A stretch of DNA of 64,000 bases from an uncultured Myxococcales bacterium (GTDB lineage: Bacteria > Myxococcota_A > Polyangia > Polyangiales > Polyangiaceae), in contig CALMUT010000014.1 in the NCBI GenBank assembly GCA_937872925.1, positions 1 through 64,000 of the forward strand. Direction: 5' to 3'. The notes below the pieces were generated by a model, which was given only the letters and a program-made list of their open reading frames with translations, did no database searches and was not told the DNA's origin. The position numbers and the translations under genes were made by a program. Below, piece by piece: positions 29,616 to 36,230 of the stretch (its first letter is position 1; every line of letters begins with the position of its first letter).

Positions 29616-31388
29616 TCAGGCCTTGCGGCGACGACGTCGGCTCAGGATAAGTCCTGCGCCCACTGCGAGCCACCACGCAGCGCCGCGTTCCGGCTGCTGA
29701 CCCGGCGTGCGACAGCCACAACCGCCGTCGTCCCCGGCGCTCGCGCTGCCACCGCCCGCGGCGGCACTTCCACCCCCTGCAGCAGCAGCGCCACCTGCGG
29801 CTGCGTTGCCAGCTGTACCGGCGCTTCCGCCGTTGGCACCCACGCCGCCGCTCGCGCTAGCTCCGGCGCCGGCGCTTCCGGCGCTGGCTGCTGCGCCCGC
29901 GCTGCCCGCGGCTCCTGCACTGCCCGCAGCTCCCGCTTGTCCGCCGACGCCGCCAGCGCCGCCCGTGCCACCTTCAGCGACGTCCGTTACCGCCACGAAT
30001 ATGCTCTGAGTATCACACGCATTCAGCGGGTCGCAGACCTGCACCGTGAGCTCGTAGATGTTATCGCCATTGCTATCTGCCGGCGCTTCGAAATCCGGCG
30101 GCGCGTTAAAGACGAGCACGCCGGTAGACGGGTTGATGCTGAACAACGCCGCGTCCAAGCCGCCGGAGATGGAGTACACCAGGGTTTGGCCAGTGTTCGG
30201 ATCCGTCGCCGTCACCGTCGTGACGGCCGTCGTGTTCTCGGGAACGCTAATGTACGCCTTGTCTTCGGCGCCGTTGCTGGTGATCTCAGGGGGAAGGTTG
30301 CTCGAGCCCGTTTGGTTCGGCAGGTTGAAGCCAAGGGTGCAGCCACCGGCCGCAAGCGTGGATAGAGCCGGCGTGTCCACATTTGGCGTATCCACAACGA
30401 GGAACGCAGTCTTGGCATTGCCGGTGTAGTAGATCTTGTTGTCGATCCCGAGCTTGGCGCCGCCCCAGCCCGTCTCGCTGTTCAGTGAGATGATGTTCTT
30501 GTCTGAGAGGCGCACGCGCTTGGGTGTCCCACTCCAACCTTCGCTACCGTCGGTGTAGTACAGGCGCGTAGAGTCCGGAGACCAGGCGACGGAGTAGCCG
30601 ACGGCTCCGGCAACCTGCGTCTGCACATTGCTCACCGCGCCCGTGGCCTGATTGAAGTCTGCGGTTGCAATCAAACCTTGCACGCCACTCGTGCCTGAAA
30701 TCCCAATCGCCAGACGCGTGACTTTGGGGGAGTGCACGATGCTGCCGCGCGCGGCCGTGCCCGTCAGCCCAGTGCTCGAAAGCACCGGCGTCGCAGAAAC
30801 TCCCGTCGCTGTGACTTGATAGGCGCGGACCGTTGCGCGGGTGTCCAGGGTCAGCACCCAGAAGTCGGAACCGTTGGCGTGGGGAAAGAAGCCCAGTGCC
30901 TCGCCGCTGTTCCATGTGCCCAGGCTGGTCGATGCGGAAATCGTCCCCGCGCCGCCACCCGCCAGGTCGACCAGGTGGTACGCGATAGTGCCATTGGCGG
31001 CGATCACGGCGTTGTTCGTGAACACGTAGAACTGATCCGCAGTGCCGCCCGGCTTCGGCACCATCAGCGCCGGCTCTGTGGTGGTGGCGTTGGCCGCCAG
31101 CGTCCCGGAGATCAACGCGTGCGTGGCGCCGTTGTAGAGGTTCAGCCCGTCCGTGTACAGCTTGAGCGCGCCGGCCGGAGTGGTCCACACCGCGCCGCCT
31201 TCGAAGCCGGAGCGCGCGCCGACCACTCCTTTGCAGGTCACCGTCGGCGGCGCCGTTGCGAAGTCGAGCAGTAGCTGGTTGTTAGCGTTGCCCGCATACC
31301 AAACCTGCTCATGCAATTGAGCGGATGCCGACGCTCCAACCGAGAGCAGTGCCGCCGTACTCAATACCCCAATCCAACGAAAACGCAT
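29616..31388 (-). CDS. Secreted beta-propeller/cadherin MYXO-CTERM protein
   Basis: 590 residues. Signal peptide (LSTAALLSVGASASA), then about 320 residues of repeated beta-propeller-like strands (SPDSTRLYYTDG, GIDNKIYYTGN), a cadherin-like region with ENTTAVTTVTATDPN and PPDFEAPADSNGDNIYELTVQ, a Gly/Ala/Ser linker of about 100 residues, and a C-terminal GDDGGCGC, hydrophobic segment and RRRRRKA: a MYXO-CTERM-like anchor. It is probably surface-exposed for adhesion or recognition. Confidence 0.85.
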   Translation of the reverse strand: MRFRWIGVLSTAALLSVGASASAQLHEQVWYAGNANNQLLLDFATAPPTVTCKGVVGARSGFEGGAVWTTPAGALKLYTDGLNLYNGATHALISGTLAANATTTEPALMVPKPGGTADQFYVFTNNAVIAANGTIAYHLVDLAGGGAGTISASTSLGTWNSGEALGFFPHANGSDFWVLTLDTRATVRAYQVTATGVSATPVLSSTGLTGTAARGSIVHSPKVTRLAIGISGTSGVQGLIATADFNQATGAVSNVQTQVAGAVGYSVAWSPDSTRLYYTDGSEGWSGTPKRVRLSDKNIISLNSETGWGGAKLGIDNKIYYTGNAKTAFLVVDTPNVDTPALSTLAAGGCTLGFNLPNQTGSSNLPPEITSNGAEDKAYISVPENTTAVTTVTATDPNTGQTLVYSISGGLDAALFSINPSTGVLVFNAPPDFEAPADSNGDNIYELTVQVCDPLNACDTQSIFVAVTDVAEGGTGGAGGVGGQAGAAGSAGAAGSAGAAASAGSAGAGASASGGVGANGGSAGTAGNAAAGGAAAAGGGSAAAGGGSASAGDDGGCGCRTPGQQPERGAAWWLAVGAGLILSRRRRRKA

Positions 31389-31511: not shown

Positions 31512-33290
31512 TCACGACGAACGTCGGCGGAGCCCGATCAGACCCAGCGCCAACGCCGACAGCCCCAAGGGCAGGGATCCGCCACGCCCAGGCACACTGC
31601 AGCCGCATCCACCGCCCGCAGGTTCGGTTTGGTCGAGGGCGCTGCCGCCGGTCCCGTTGCCCGCGTTGCCCCCGTTGCCCGCGTTGCCGGACCCGCCGAT
31701 GCCGCTTGCTGCACCCGCACCCGCAGTGCCGCCGGCTCCCGGCGGTGGCCAGCCCTGCGACTGGTTCCACGCGGCGAGCAGCGAATCGATCTTGGCGCTA
31801 TTGTCGACCAACACGATCTTACCGGCACCCGGCATGTACTCCTCGATGCTCTCGACCCATGGCATCTGGCTGTCCCACGGGGGCCACTGGCCGCCGTCCA
31901 AGGCAACCTGACGGCTGTCCGGCAAGATCATGCCGGAAGATCCGTTGCAGGTAGTGAGACGAGTTGCGACCTGAAAGGCTTGCACCGGGGGCAAGCCGGG
32001 GCGCGGGTGAAACATGGGATCTTCCGTCATCTCTAGGGGCGAGATGGTGGTGAACATGCGCGTCAAATACGGCCACTTCTGCAGCAGTCCTTGGGCGTGT
32101 TTGCCAGGGTCTTCGATGCGCGACTTGAAGTCGGCGGCGAACTTCGTGGCGTCCCACGCGCTCTGGTCGATCAGCCCGACGTTGCAAGATAGACACGAAT
32201 AGAACTTCGCCGCAGACATGCTGGCGGGCACCGGCAAGTACTCGTCGAGCAAAGGCTGCAGCAACGGGTGGTTGAAGACGCAGATATTTTCGTTGAAGCA
32301 CTGCGCCAAGTTCTGATTGGTCAGTTCGTCGATGACTTTTTCCGGAGCCAAACCCGTGAACGCCGCAGAGTTCCAACTCGAGCTGTACACCGTAGAAGGC
32401 GGCACCACGGCGCTCGACCCGGCGTACTCAGTGACGAACGCTCGGCCGTTGGCCACAGCGCTGTCGGCGCCTCGGCTGACGCTTTGCATGTAGTTCGACG
32501 CGAAGCTGTTCCAGTCGATGCGCACGGGATTGAGGGTGATGTGTTTGTAGTTGGTGGGCACGACGCGGTCGTCACCGAGGAAAAATGTGCGCACTCCCAT
32601 GTCTTCGGTAGCAGCAACAGCCGTCAGCTTGAGGGGAACGCAGGGCTCGGTACCCGCATACTTGAAGACCAGTGGGTGGATCTCGTCGACGCTCGCGCCC
32701 GCGGTCATCTTGATGGCCACAAAGACGTAGTTCTGGTTGACGTAGTCTTTGAGGATGTCTGTCGCGGACGGAATGCTCTGGTAGTTGTTAGTGCTCAGCC
32801 AATCACTAACTTCTTGCGCGGTGCCGCCTTGCAGCACCGTGACCACGAATGCACCCACCGTTTCCTTGAAAACCACGGTCGGTCCGCCGCCGGCGCCTGC
32901 TGCGCCGCTGGCACCGCCGAACCCACCGGTGGCAGAACCACCGGATCCACCGTTGCCACATAGCGACTGAGTGTTGAAGGAGTAGGTCGGCGCAGTGCCC
33001 TGCAGCATGCGCTGGAACAGAAGCTGAGAGCCGACCGACACTGTCGGCACCTTGGGCATGGGCACCACCCAGGCAAAGCGCTCCGCAACCCCCTGATACT
33101 GGATCTGTACATGCGCTTCGACGTTCTGGCCGTCCATCACGAACAAGATGTTCTCCCCAGATTGGTCCACCGGCATGGCGGTAGGACCCGTGTCGCAGAA
33201 GGTGCCTCCGCAGGCACTGGCCGATTCAGTCATCGCGCCCAGTAGCAGCACGGACGCACTCGCGATGGCTAAACTGTGCAGCGTTTTCAT
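31512..33290 (-). CDS. DUF2330 family MYXO-CTERM protein
   Basis: 592 residues. Signal peptide, then CGGTFCDTGPTAMPVDQSGENILFV, the hallmark opening of DUF2330 proteins, which are exported and of unknown function. The central region carries further Cys pairs (FNENICVFNHPLL, SCLSCNVG) and the C-terminus has a Gly/Ala linker, GGGCGCSVPGRGG, a hydrophobic helix and RRRSS. The same general design as the gene at 29616, immediately downstream in the same direction with 123 bp between. Confidence 0.85.
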   Translation of the reverse strand: MKTLHSLAIASASVLLLGAMTESASACGGTFCDTGPTAMPVDQSGENILFVMDGQNVEAHVQIQYQGVAERFAWVVPMPKVPTVSVGSQLLFQRMLQGTAPTYSFNTQSLCGNGGSGGSATGGFGGASGAAGAGGGPTVVFKETVGAFVVTVLQGGTAQEVSDWLSTNNYQSIPSATDILKDYVNQNYVFVAIKMTAGASVDEIHPLVFKYAGTEPCVPLKLTAVAATEDMGVRTFFLGDDRVVPTNYKHITLNPVRIDWNSFASNYMQSVSRGADSAVANGRAFVTEYAGSSAVVPPSTVYSSSWNSAAFTGLAPEKVIDELTNQNLAQCFNENICVFNHPLLQPLLDEYLPVPASMSAAKFYSCLSCNVGLIDQSAWDATKFAADFKSRIEDPGKHAQGLLQKWPYLTRMFTTISPLEMTEDPMFHPRPGLPPVQAFQVATRLTTCNGSSGMILPDSRQVALDGGQWPPWDSQMPWVESIEEYMPGAGKIVLVDNSAKIDSLLAAWNQSQGWPPPGAGGTAGAGAASGIGGSGNAGNGGNAGNGTGGSALDQTEPAGGGCGCSVPGRGGSLPLGLSALALGLIGLRRRSS

Positions 33291-33353: not shown

Positions 33354-35078
33354 TCAGAACGGAGCGCCGCCGGCGCCCGCAAAGGCACCGAAACCACCGC
33401 CGCCGGCGGACCCCGCGAAGCCTCCGGAACCACCGCCCACGCCACCGGTGCCGAAGCCGCAATCTTCCTCACACCAACCCCATTCCTCGGGCGTGCAAAT
33501 GAAGTCACCACAATAAGACGGAGGCGGTGGCGGCGGATAGCCGCAGTCTTGCGGGCAGTTGTAGACTTCCCCGGGACCGCAGATCTTGTCGCCACAGTAA
33601 CCGCCCCAGCCGCAGTCTTGCGGGCAGTTGTACTGGTTTTCACCAGGGCCACATACGTAGTCGCCGCAGTAACCGCCCCAGCCGCAGTCTTGCGGGCAGT
33701 TGTACTGGTTTTCACCAGGGCCACATACGTAGTCGCCGCAGTAACCGCCCCAGCCGCAGTCTTGCGGGCAGTTGTATTGGTTTTCACCCAAGCCACAAAC
33801 GTAGTCGCCGCAGTACCCGTTTTGGTAGCAGTCCTGCGGGCAGTTCTTCTGATTCTCTCCCGGGCCACATACGTAGTCACCGCAGTAACCGCCCCAACCG
33901 CAATCTTGCGGACAGTTGTATTGGTTCTCCCCAGGGCCGCATTGGTAGTCGCCGCAATAGCCGACATAGCCGCAGTCTTGCGGGCAATTGTACGGCGTCT
34001 CGCTATTCGGATCGCAGTAGGTGTCGCCGCAGTACCCGCCGTAACCGCAGTCGATGGGGCAGTTCTTTTCGTTCTCACCCGCGCCGCAGATGTAGTCGCC
34101 GCAGTAGCCGGCTTTGTAGCAGTCCGTGGGACAGTTCTTTTCGGTTTCTCCCGGACCACAGATCTTGTCGCCGCAATAGCCAGGCTTGCCGCAGTCGATC
34201 GGGCAGTTGTTCGCCGTCTCTCCCGGGCCGCAGATCTTGTCACCGCAGTACCCCGGCTTGCCGCAGTCCTGTGGACAGTTGTATTGGTTCTCCGTCGCCT
34301 TGTTGCAGTAGCCATCGCCGCAGTAGGTCTGAGTGGCGCAATCGTACGGGCAGTTCTTCTCGTTTTCGCCGGGCCCACAGACCTTGTCGCCGCAGTAGCC
34401 CGACGTCCCGCAATCCATGGGACAGTTCTTCTCGTTTTCGCCGGGTCCGCAGATCTTGTCGCCGCAGTAACCAGGATTGCCGCAATCAATGGGGCAGTTC
34501 TTTTCGTTCTCACCCGGTTCGCACAGGCCGTTGCCGCAGTAAAAAGGCGGACCGCAGTCTTGCGGACAGATGTACGGATCTTCGCCAGGTCCACACTGGC
34601 CATCGCCGCAGTATCCCGGCTGCCCGCAGTCTGACGGGCAGGAGTTTGCGTTCTCGCCTTCGCCGCACAACCCGTCGCCGCAGAAGCCGCAGTCGGACTG
34701 GCACGACCAGGGATCTTCGTCCGGTCCACAGTAGCCATCGCCGCAGTAGCCCTTGCCGCAATCCTGCGGGCACGACTCCATGCTTTCACCTGGATCGCAC
34801 ACGGCGTTGCCACAGCTGCCACCGCAGTCCTTGGGACACGTGGTCTCTTCGCCGGGATCGCATACCGCGTTGCCGCAGTCGTTGCGGCAGTCCGCGGGAC
34901 AGCTCACGGGGTCTTCGCTGGCATCGCAAACTCCATCGCCGCAGGCCACTCCGCCGTCCGCCCCGCTAGAACCGCCGTAGCCCTCACCGGGATCGATCCG
35001 ACTGCCGCAGCCGCTCGAGGCCGTCAGCAGACCCATCCCGCCCAAAAACACCGCCGCCCGAAGCCAGTTCTTGATCAT
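33354..35078 (-). CDS. Lipoprotein of 21 Cys-rich repeats
   Basis: 574 residues. Start at 35078 preceded by GGGGG; lipoprotein signal ending LTASSGCGS. Then about 21 consecutive repeats of roughly 24 residues with the pattern C-G-D/N-x3-C-x-P-G-E-x4-C-P-x-D-C-G and a linking Tyr (for example YCGDYVCGPGENQYNCPQDC), four Cys each, and finally a Gly/Ala/Phe tail. Adjacent repeats near the C-terminus are near identical at the DNA level (72 bp), indicating recent expansion. Probably a stiff disulphide- or metal-bearing surface rod. Long open frames on other strands here are by-products. Confidence 0.85.
   Translation of the reverse strand: MIKNWLRAAVFLGGMGLLTASSGCGSRIDPGEGYGGSSGADGGVACGDGVCDASEDPVSCPADCRNDCGNAVCDPGEETTCPKDCGGSCGNAVCDPGESMESCPQDCGKGYCGDGYCGPDEDPWSCQSDCGFCGDGLCGEGENANSCPSDCGQPGYCGDGQCGPGEDPYICPQDCGPPFYCGNGLCEPGENEKNCPIDCGNPGYCGDKICGPGENEKNCPMDCGTSGYCGDKVCGPGENEKNCPYDCATQTYCGDGYCNKATENQYNCPQDCGKPGYCGDKICGPGETANNCPIDCGKPGYCGDKICGPGETEKNCPTDCYKAGYCGDYICGAGENEKNCPIDCGYGGYCGDTYCDPNSETPYNCPQDCGYVGYCGDYQCGPGENQYNCPQDCGWGGYCGDYVCGPGENQKNCPQDCYQNGYCGDYVCGLGENQYNCPQDCGWGGYCGDYVCGPGENQYNCPQDCGWGGYCGDYVCGPGENQYNCPQDCGWGGYCGDKICGPGEVYNCPQDCGYPPPPPPSYCGDFICTPEEWGWCEEDCGFGTGGVGGGSGGFAGSAGGGGFGAFAGAGGAPF
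33560..34980 (-). repeat. 72-bp coding tandem repeats
   Basis: DNA basis of the 21 Cys-rich repeats; the units around 33600-33790 are almost identical (the block starting CCGCAGTCTTGCGGGCAGTT recurs at 72-bp steps), while those beyond 34600 are diverged. The gradient shows that the array grew at its C-terminal side. Confidence 0.85.
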
Positions 35079-35531
35079 CGCCCCCAGCAGGGTAGCAAGG
35101 CGCGGGCCACACCTTCTAATTCGTGGATCCCTGGGATGCCCAGAGATCCTATGCAAATTGCGGGCTGTGCCACGCCAACTCTTGGCACACAGCGGCAATT
35201 GTGTCGCTTTCGGTACGGCGCGACGGGTCCCAGGGCTCCACCGCACCTCGCGCACTCGCAGGACACAAATACGCAACACGTTTTCAGTATTCGGTGCGTT
35301 CCGTGCGCGCCCAAACGCAGCACGACAGGTGCGTGAATGTGCGCGGATGGGCCTGCATCCCATACGACCACTAGCGAATACTCAGGCAATAAAGTTCAGG
35401 CGGATTTCGCGGAGAACGGCCGAAACACCCTCGGTTCAGCGCGCAATCGTCGGGACAGGTTTGAACACGCGGCGTCCCTCGCCGCGGATACGGGCGCGGA
35501 GATCCTCGGCGCCGAAGGGGACAGTTCCATC
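35079..35531. other. 450-bp divergent intergenic region
   Basis: Lies between the divergently read Cys-repeat lipoprotein and the next lipoprotein, so both promoters should be here. Less GC-rich patches exist around 35145-35165 and 35270-35300. I could not assign a -35/-10 pair with confidence and saw no further gene. Confidence 0.5.
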
Positions 35532-36230
35532 ATGAAACTCATGTTGATCGCCGTGTTGGCGTTGGGTGCGGCTAGCTGCGCGACACCCGTCAATGATTTG
35601 GGAAACGGCGTTGGCGGTAGTAGCGGTGCCGGCGCGAGCTCCGGCTGTTCACAATTTCCGGACTGTAGCTCCTGCGGCAGTTGCGTCGCCGGCTGCATGT
35701 GCTCCGGCTCAACCTACGGAGAATGCGCAAACGTTTGCGGGATCAGTTCAAGCGGCGGCTCAAGCGGCAACGGTGGCAACGCGGGCTCCGGCGGCTTCGG
35801 CAACAGCAGCGGCTTTGGCGGCTTCGGCAACAGCAGCGGCCGCGGCGGTTTCGGCTCGGGCGGTTTTGGTTCAGCGAGTGCCGGCGGCAGCGGCGGATCC
35901 GGTACGGGAGGCTTTGGTTCGACCAGCGCAGGCGGCTCCGGCGGCTTCGGAGGCGGCACGACCTGCTCGGTCACCGTGGGCGATCCGATCTGCGACGCTT
36001 GTGTACACGCGCAGTGCTGCACGGAGGCGGAGGCCTGCGTGAACAACCCGGACTGCACAGGACTGATGGCGTGCTTGGGGCTATCCACAGCGTGCCAAAG
36101 CGCGACCACCATGACACAACTACTCGCCTGTGCGGACACAGCATGTCCCGCGCAGATCGCAGGCAAAGCTTCCTTCAGCGCCTATGTGACCTGCATGTCG
36201 ACCCAGTGCGCAGGCTCTTGTGGGATCTAA
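35532..36230 (+). CDS. Gly/Phe-spacer lipoprotein with Cys-rich ends
   Basis: 232 residues. Lipoprotein signal VLALGAASC, a small N-terminal Cys cluster (DCSSCGSCVAGCMCSG), about 90 residues of spacer made of GGFG/SS-type repeats, and a C-terminal helical Cys domain (CDACVHAQCCTEAEACVNNPDCTGLMACL and so on) that resembles the product of 44168-44629. Purine-rich GAAGGGGA (35513-35520) lies upstream. Possibly a surface adhesin family. Confidence 0.75.
   Translation: MKLMLIAVLALGAASCATPVNDLGNGVGGSSGAGASSGCSQFPDCSSCGSCVAGCMCSGSTYGECANVCGISSSGGSSGNGGNAGSGGFGNSSGFGGFGNSSGRGGFGSGGFGSASAGGSGGSGTGGFGSTSAGGSGGFGGGTTCSVTVGDPICDACVHAQCCTEAEACVNNPDCTGLMACLGLSTACQSATTMTQLLACADTACPAQIAGKASFSAYVTCMSTQCAGSCGI

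Follow-up and report, generated by a model that had tools for sequence, protein, structure and literature searches.

A widespread four-cysteine repeat builds a candidate disulfide-locked surface stalk in a myxobacterial lipoprotein

What does a bacterium make when it exports a protein that consists mostly of one small cysteine-rich repeat? This question is raised by a gene in the 64,000-nucleotide stretch of DNA analysed here (hereafter the window), whose host is a soil bacterium of the myxobacterial group. The gene occupies 33354..35078 of the minus strand, from an ATG at 35078 to a stop codon at 33356-33354 that is included in these coordinates, and encodes 574 amino acids. The original prediction, made from the letters of the sequence, described it as a lipoprotein rod of 21 four-Cys repeats; the observation was confirmed, with exact coordinates and 21 four-Cys units, and the interpretation was supported in part, as set out below. 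An open reading frame on the opposite strand (33527-34969) was discarded as an artefact of the GC-rich repeat, because the lipobox, the homology and the dN/dS signal all lie on the minus strand. A promoter scan gave nothing above chance.

The protein begins with a signal peptide and lipobox (..LLTASSG-C24; 35007..35078, minus strand, as are all parts of the gene), an arrangement read from the sequence only and found likewise in relatives, and Cys24 is predicted to be lipidated. The lipobox has the less usual Ser at -3, and residue +2 is Gly, not Asp; a +2 residue other than Asp fits outer-membrane sorting of lipoproteins. A C-[GS]-[RSA] start is common to the relatives (22 of 31 proteins in a crude scan, one false match having been removed by eye), and together with the lipobox it supports the predicted lipoprotein nature of the product, which is probably an outer-membrane lipoprotein exposed at the surface. 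A Gly/Ser-rich spacer (34944..35006) leads from the lipid anchor to unit 1 and is followed by an N-terminal block of units 1-5 (34611..34943), delimited by sequence and by unit matches to a same-genus relative, and by a variable block of units 6-19 (33597..34610), in which units 15-19 are near-identical as protein. The stretch 33459..33596 encodes units 20-21; it includes a Pro-rich linker (PPPPPP), the last unit contains a Trp, and two relatives (L032 and L033) have ends similar to this region. The protein closes with a Gly-rich C-terminal tail (33357..33458) without a recognised domain or sorting signal.

Each of the 21 units has the form C1-x4-C2-x7..9-C4-x3-C5 with all four Cys present; the last two Cys are numbered C4 and C5 to leave room for an additional C3 that relatives carry between C2 and C4. 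Units account for 84 of the 85 Cys of the protein, the remaining one being Cys24. The C-x4-C and C-x3-C spacings are kept in 21/21 units, and the C2-C4 gap measures 8 residues in 16 units, 7 in three (units 2, 20 and 21) and 9 in two (units 10 and 14). Five residues make up 15 of the 20 linkers, the others having 2, 3, 3, 4 and 10, and aromatic residues (Y, W) recur in them. The C-x3-C spacing was therefore constant as predicted, but the C-x5-C spacing, also said to be constant, turned out to be the linker between units, which holds in 15/20 only. In 2000 shuffles of the same protein the unit pattern was matched 0.75 times on average and five times at most, against the 21 matches observed. The description of the units as acidic was borne out by 84 D+E vs 21 K+R.

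To define what is conserved we compared 420 units from 31 proteins (loci L001-L033 minus two duplicates). In 419 units position 3 carries D or N, under a search pattern that restricted it to six residues; an E in the C2-C4 loop (420/420) and a D directly before C5 (416/420) were left free by the pattern. The window gene shows the resulting CG[DN]-C-E-C-x2-DC arrangement, that is C1-G-[DN]-x2-C2, a loop with E, and C4-x2-D-C5, in tandem. These three near-invariant carboxylate or amide positions would fit metal binding. According to their Cys content the 31 proteins fall into three classes: four-Cys units (10 proteins, including that of the window), units with an additional C3 three residues before C4 and C6 three residues after C5 (19 proteins), and units with an alternative pair, one Cys about four residues after C2 and another two before C1 (2 proteins). 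With our first definition C3 occurred without C6 in 3 units and a linker Cys without C3 in 65, nearly all of the latter belonging to the third class, whose linker Cys this definition also caught. A stricter definition, applied to three sets of loci outside the window, found 211 units with C3 and C6, 328 with neither, 1 with C3 alone (hence 1/212 C3-bearing units without C6) and 46 with a Cys at the C6 position alone, most of which we infer to be units with two-residue linkers, where the C1 of the next unit falls at that place. In the first count the third-class pair is complete in 64 units, with one Cys only in 2 and 1. Seven proteins (L057, L058, L060, L081, L086, L091 and L093, of which L058 and L060 are near copies) mix paired and unpaired units, and L081 also holds 3 + 1 half pairs. 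A third Cys pair is gained or lost jointly, at either of two alternative positions, and the joint gain and loss of C3 and C6 is as expected from a C3-C6 disulfide. This pattern indicates nothing direct on pairing among the four core Cys.

We then determined how far the repeat extends. The window genome contains one other match, a protein with six-Cys units (L002). The whole protein as a query matched in 36 of 59 relatives (E 0.001), and a profile built from 39 four-unit fragments matched in 108 of the 282 genomes sampled from the phylum (E 1e-6), some with more than 15 places; these counts are lower bounds, with at most 18 candidates scored per genome. The profile sampling was of the phylum, and an exact-peptide scan of cellular genome contigs with peptides of the window protein returned 2 loci. 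Five patterns run on viral-collection contigs gave 0, 14, 4, 3 and 7 stretches on partly shared contigs, and many contigs of that collection with the repeat may be host DNA. A protein annotated 'hp' of Altiarchaeum virus BK059157.1 (L064, 2671-3843) combines units of six and of four Cys with a hydrophobic segment at its C-terminus. In the plasmid collection neither the window protein nor one six-Cys relative was matched. From these searches the repeat appears to be widespread in the phylum and beyond, and no oddity of the window genome. Of note, six-Cys lipoproteins of Polyangiales (L002 1369-2295, L013-L021, L023, L024, L026 and L029-L031) share, as judged by eye, a C-terminal domain that is rich in Cys and follows the repeats, for which the three scanned (L002, L013 and L020) gave no Pfam match.

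The window protein was matched by no Pfam or NCBIfam family at E up to 1, and seven short fragments searched at E up to 10 gave sub-cut-off matches only, the best being RET_CRD (E 0.017, 15.8 bits vs a cut-off of 26). A PDB sequence search matched neither the protein nor the repeat profile, and among the papers listed in a literature search none dealt with the four-Cys unit. The claim that this architecture is undescribed stands as far as these catalogues and this search go, but the repeat itself is widespread and the idea of a Cys-rich stalk has already been put forward for TraA, the outer-membrane exchange receptor of Myxococcus. The TraA repeat model, TIGR04201 (Myxo_Cys_RPT), shares with the window protein tandem Cys-rich repeats on an exported myxobacterial protein, but it has 22 positions with three invariant Cys, and TraA differs further by its MYXO-CTERM end and PA14 head. 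At a cut-off of 25 bits this model passes on its own at five other places in the window genome, and it gave no match at the repeat gene (C14:33354-35078) at E up to 1. The repeat of TIGR02232 (myxo_disulf_rpt) begins with a CG[DN]G-like motif and resembles the window repeat in being acidic, Cys-rich and tandem in the same genome, but its model spans 38 positions; at its cut-off of 20.8 bits it matched 35 other places in the genome and left the window gene unmatched, and among the relatives it reached only 6.5 bits, in a single one (L057). One lipoprotein-like open reading frame (L052, 11930-13531, minus strand) carries, by eye, CGDGVQDTGEECDDGN-type repeats followed by four-Cys units, which hints that the two repeats are related or interchangeable. 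Lin12/Notch repeats (PF00066) and disintegrin-like domains are small, disulfide-rich, Ca2+-binding modules with conserved acidic residues and resemble the unit in this respect. However, models of the repeat gave no fold match, and at E up to 1 PF00066 matched nowhere in the window genome. Among the relatives none was found to be metal-binding. For TraA the Cys-rich repeats were proposed as a rigid stalk on the myxobacterial surface (PMC3325183), and a paper on Peribacteria notes Cys-rich proteins whose similarity to Myxococcus Cys-rich repeats is very weak (PMC4736985).

The place of the repeat in other proteins bears on its role. In four proteins (L078, L079, L080 and L092, the second by eye) a lipobox is followed by 7-8 units and then by a large domain. 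Weak matches to VolA/Pla-1 phospholipases (TIGR03502) were found in L077, L078, L080 and L092 (E 7e-8 to 0.002, far under the family cut-off) in a scan that excluded L079, and a Pfam scan of these proteins gave no match; the window protein has no such domain, and VolA itself is a surface lipoprotein (PMC5500766). In L027 a lipobox and five units precede a region that is enzyme-like by eye and has only a weak DUF3500 match, and in L056 a lipobox and four units precede other sequence. As arrays sit between a lipobox and another domain, the module often appears in a spacer position beside an anchor. The array of three trypsin-domain proteins (L086, L091 and L093) lies between the protease and a hydrophobic C-terminal segment that ends in basic residues, which in one of them is accompanied by a sub-threshold MYXO-CTERM match; these proteins also carry an N-terminal lipobox-like site besides the hydrophobic tail, so that a stalk reading is ambiguous for them. 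No head domain was recognised in the window protein or in its relatives with long arrays (16-26 units in the four-Cys class, 31 and 35 in the third), and the rod itself therefore seems to be the product.

We next examined how the array grew. A repeat-number comparison, proposed originally for strains, was run among relatives, where the number of four-Cys units varies from 16 in a close relative of the same genus (G001) to 24-26 in G311, G148, G008 and G057. When 19-residue units were compared between the window protein and that of G001, leaving out window units 2, 10, 14, 20 and 21 and two units of G001, window units 1, 3 and 4 were reciprocal best matches of G001 units 1, 4 and 5, and window units 15-19 and G001 units 7-14 were closest to units of their own protein. 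Reciprocal matches at the start and within-protein matches at the end suggest that the N-terminal order is old and that the C-terminal block was copied and homogenised separately within each lineage. Near-identical units do gather on one side, as predicted, namely towards the C-terminus (15-19). Over whole units, DNA identity is complete between 18 and 19, 93% between 17 and 18, 74% between 16 and 17 and 69% between 15 and 16, and the differences among units 15-19 are mostly synonymous. The dN/dS values, rough since synonymous sites are near saturation, are about 0.06 within units 15-19 and 0.10 within the set of units 7-9 and 11-13, while N-terminal units that correspond across two species give 0.12. 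The predicted recent expansion is thus limited to units 17-19; for units 15-16 recent copying was ruled out by synonymous divergence, and their likeness mostly reflects purifying selection.

Structure prediction was carried out with AlphaFold on a 4-unit query (39 alignment rows) and on a 3-unit query aligned with a more diverse set of 53 rows (53 of 65 fragments, 12 single-unit fragments being dropped). The two models had mean pLDDT of 59.9 and 64.5 and pTM of 0.32 and 0.35, and showed at this low confidence a short helix in each unit that ended at D-C5. No solved fold was matched in fold searches with them, and at pLDDT 60-65 the models were set aside as fold evidence. The poor models, the lack of a fold match and the lack of a metal-binding relative tell against a stabilised stalk; the proposed rod is plausible from the architecture. 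On the whole we favour, with some reserve, a reading of the window protein as a disulfide-locked, probably Ca2+-stabilised outer-membrane stalk. The core of about 19 residues would form a small knot with two disulfides among the four Cys; the D/N two residues after C1, the loop E and the D before C5 would stabilise this knot and probably hold Ca2+; and the linkers, mostly of five residues, would string these knots together as an acidic rod, extended and resistant to proteases. Elsewhere the module would hold another domain away from the membrane anchor. The window protein would be "headless", and its rod, possibly together with the Trp-containing last unit, would act as a surface spacer, coat or contact element. 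What the sequences show directly is the repeat, its conservation, the purifying selection, the joint gain and loss of the extra Cys and the domain arrangements; disulfides, Ca2+, extended shape, exposure and role are inferred.

The main rival is that the units bind a glycan or protein and that their copies provide avidity, the protein being an adhesin or matrix-binding array and not mainly a spacer. Secreted, protease- or enzyme-like proteins (by eye; L050, L057 and L061) carry one to three units at or near the C-terminus without an evident anchor, a place typical of binding modules, and there the units suggest a binding module more readily than a stalk. The Y and W of the linkers point the same way, but the aromatic-bearing linkers vary among relatives and no binding-module family matches the units, and we regard a binding array as unlikely, if worth keeping in mind. 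Two further readings are much less probable. The 85 Cys in 574 residues might suggest storage or scavenging of soft metals such as Cu or Zn by thiols; however, the protein is exported, has no His and only 4 Met, its Cys come in complete sets with extra Cys almost only in pairs, as disulfides would be, and its neighbours encode DUF2330 and cadherin-like MYXO-CTERM proteins, not metal-resistance genes, so that this function is highly improbable. We would give equally little weight to a protease-inhibitor-like array released from the cell, for which the sole pointer is a match of the relative L050 to the TIL inhibitor family at E 3.8, no better than chance, and against which stand the predicted lipid anchor, the strong purifying selection on the tested units and the lack of a significant family match.

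Extending the stalk reading from the window protein to the repeat at large, we tentatively consider it possible, though somewhat doubtful as a whole, that bacteria and at least one archaeal virus share in this unit a widespread disulfide module, stabilised by metal and so far without a model, in which two core disulfides are constant and a third is either absent or in one of two placements. Long 'headless' arrays of it would give Polyangiales cells surface rods of adjustable length that might respond to Ca2+. More than a third of the genomes sampled from the phylum contain the repeat, which is found on proteases and lipase-like proteins among others, yet it has no Pfam, NCBIfam or PDB entry as far as searched here; with a family model, many surface proteins now called "hypothetical" could be annotated. 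The module lends itself to studying how disulfide-locked stalks are built in bacteria and how their length is tuned, and since natural variants exist with two, three or differently placed disulfides, the disulfide map can be tested directly.

The repeat gene lies 63 bases upstream of a DUF2330 gene (31512-33290, minus strand; MYXO-CTERM-like C-terminus just under the cut-off), which is followed on the same strand by a gene for a cadherin-domain protein with a MYXO-CTERM-like C-terminus (29616-31388). A function based on an operon with DUF2330 was dropped, because DUF2330 homologues are on other contigs than the repeat gene in G148, G311, G014 and G001, and none was found in G033 at E 1e-10. 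Upstream and divergent is a gene for a Gly/Ser-rich, Cys-rich predicted lipoprotein (35532-36230, plus strand), for which a family scan of 35496-36230 gave no match. In relatives the repeat gene follows a NapG/NapH-like polyferredoxin gene (G008 and G036) or lies near a ferredoxin gene with ORFs between (G014), and in G008, G033, G148 and G311 it is followed, directly or past an M66-peptidase-like lipoprotein gene, by a TPR/FHA gene and further on by an ECF sigma-factor-like gene. The window genome (C36, L069) and G001 (C9, L070) have the ferredoxin, M66-like and FHA genes in close proximity, but the repeat gene is missing there and sits elsewhere among other neighbours. Since relatives keep the repeat gene at the ferredoxin/FHA/sigma-factor locus, the DUF2330 neighbour looks recent and the window neighbourhood does not appear to be ancestral. 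The locus itself, in L069 (2169-8522), L070 (21-7848) and L071 (4054-9907), comprises the NapG/NapH-like polyferredoxin, the M66-like lipoprotein (not in L071) and the TPR/FHA protein, whose RomY_Nterm match was tested in L071 only, and a sigma-factor gene is found nearby in L070 and L071.
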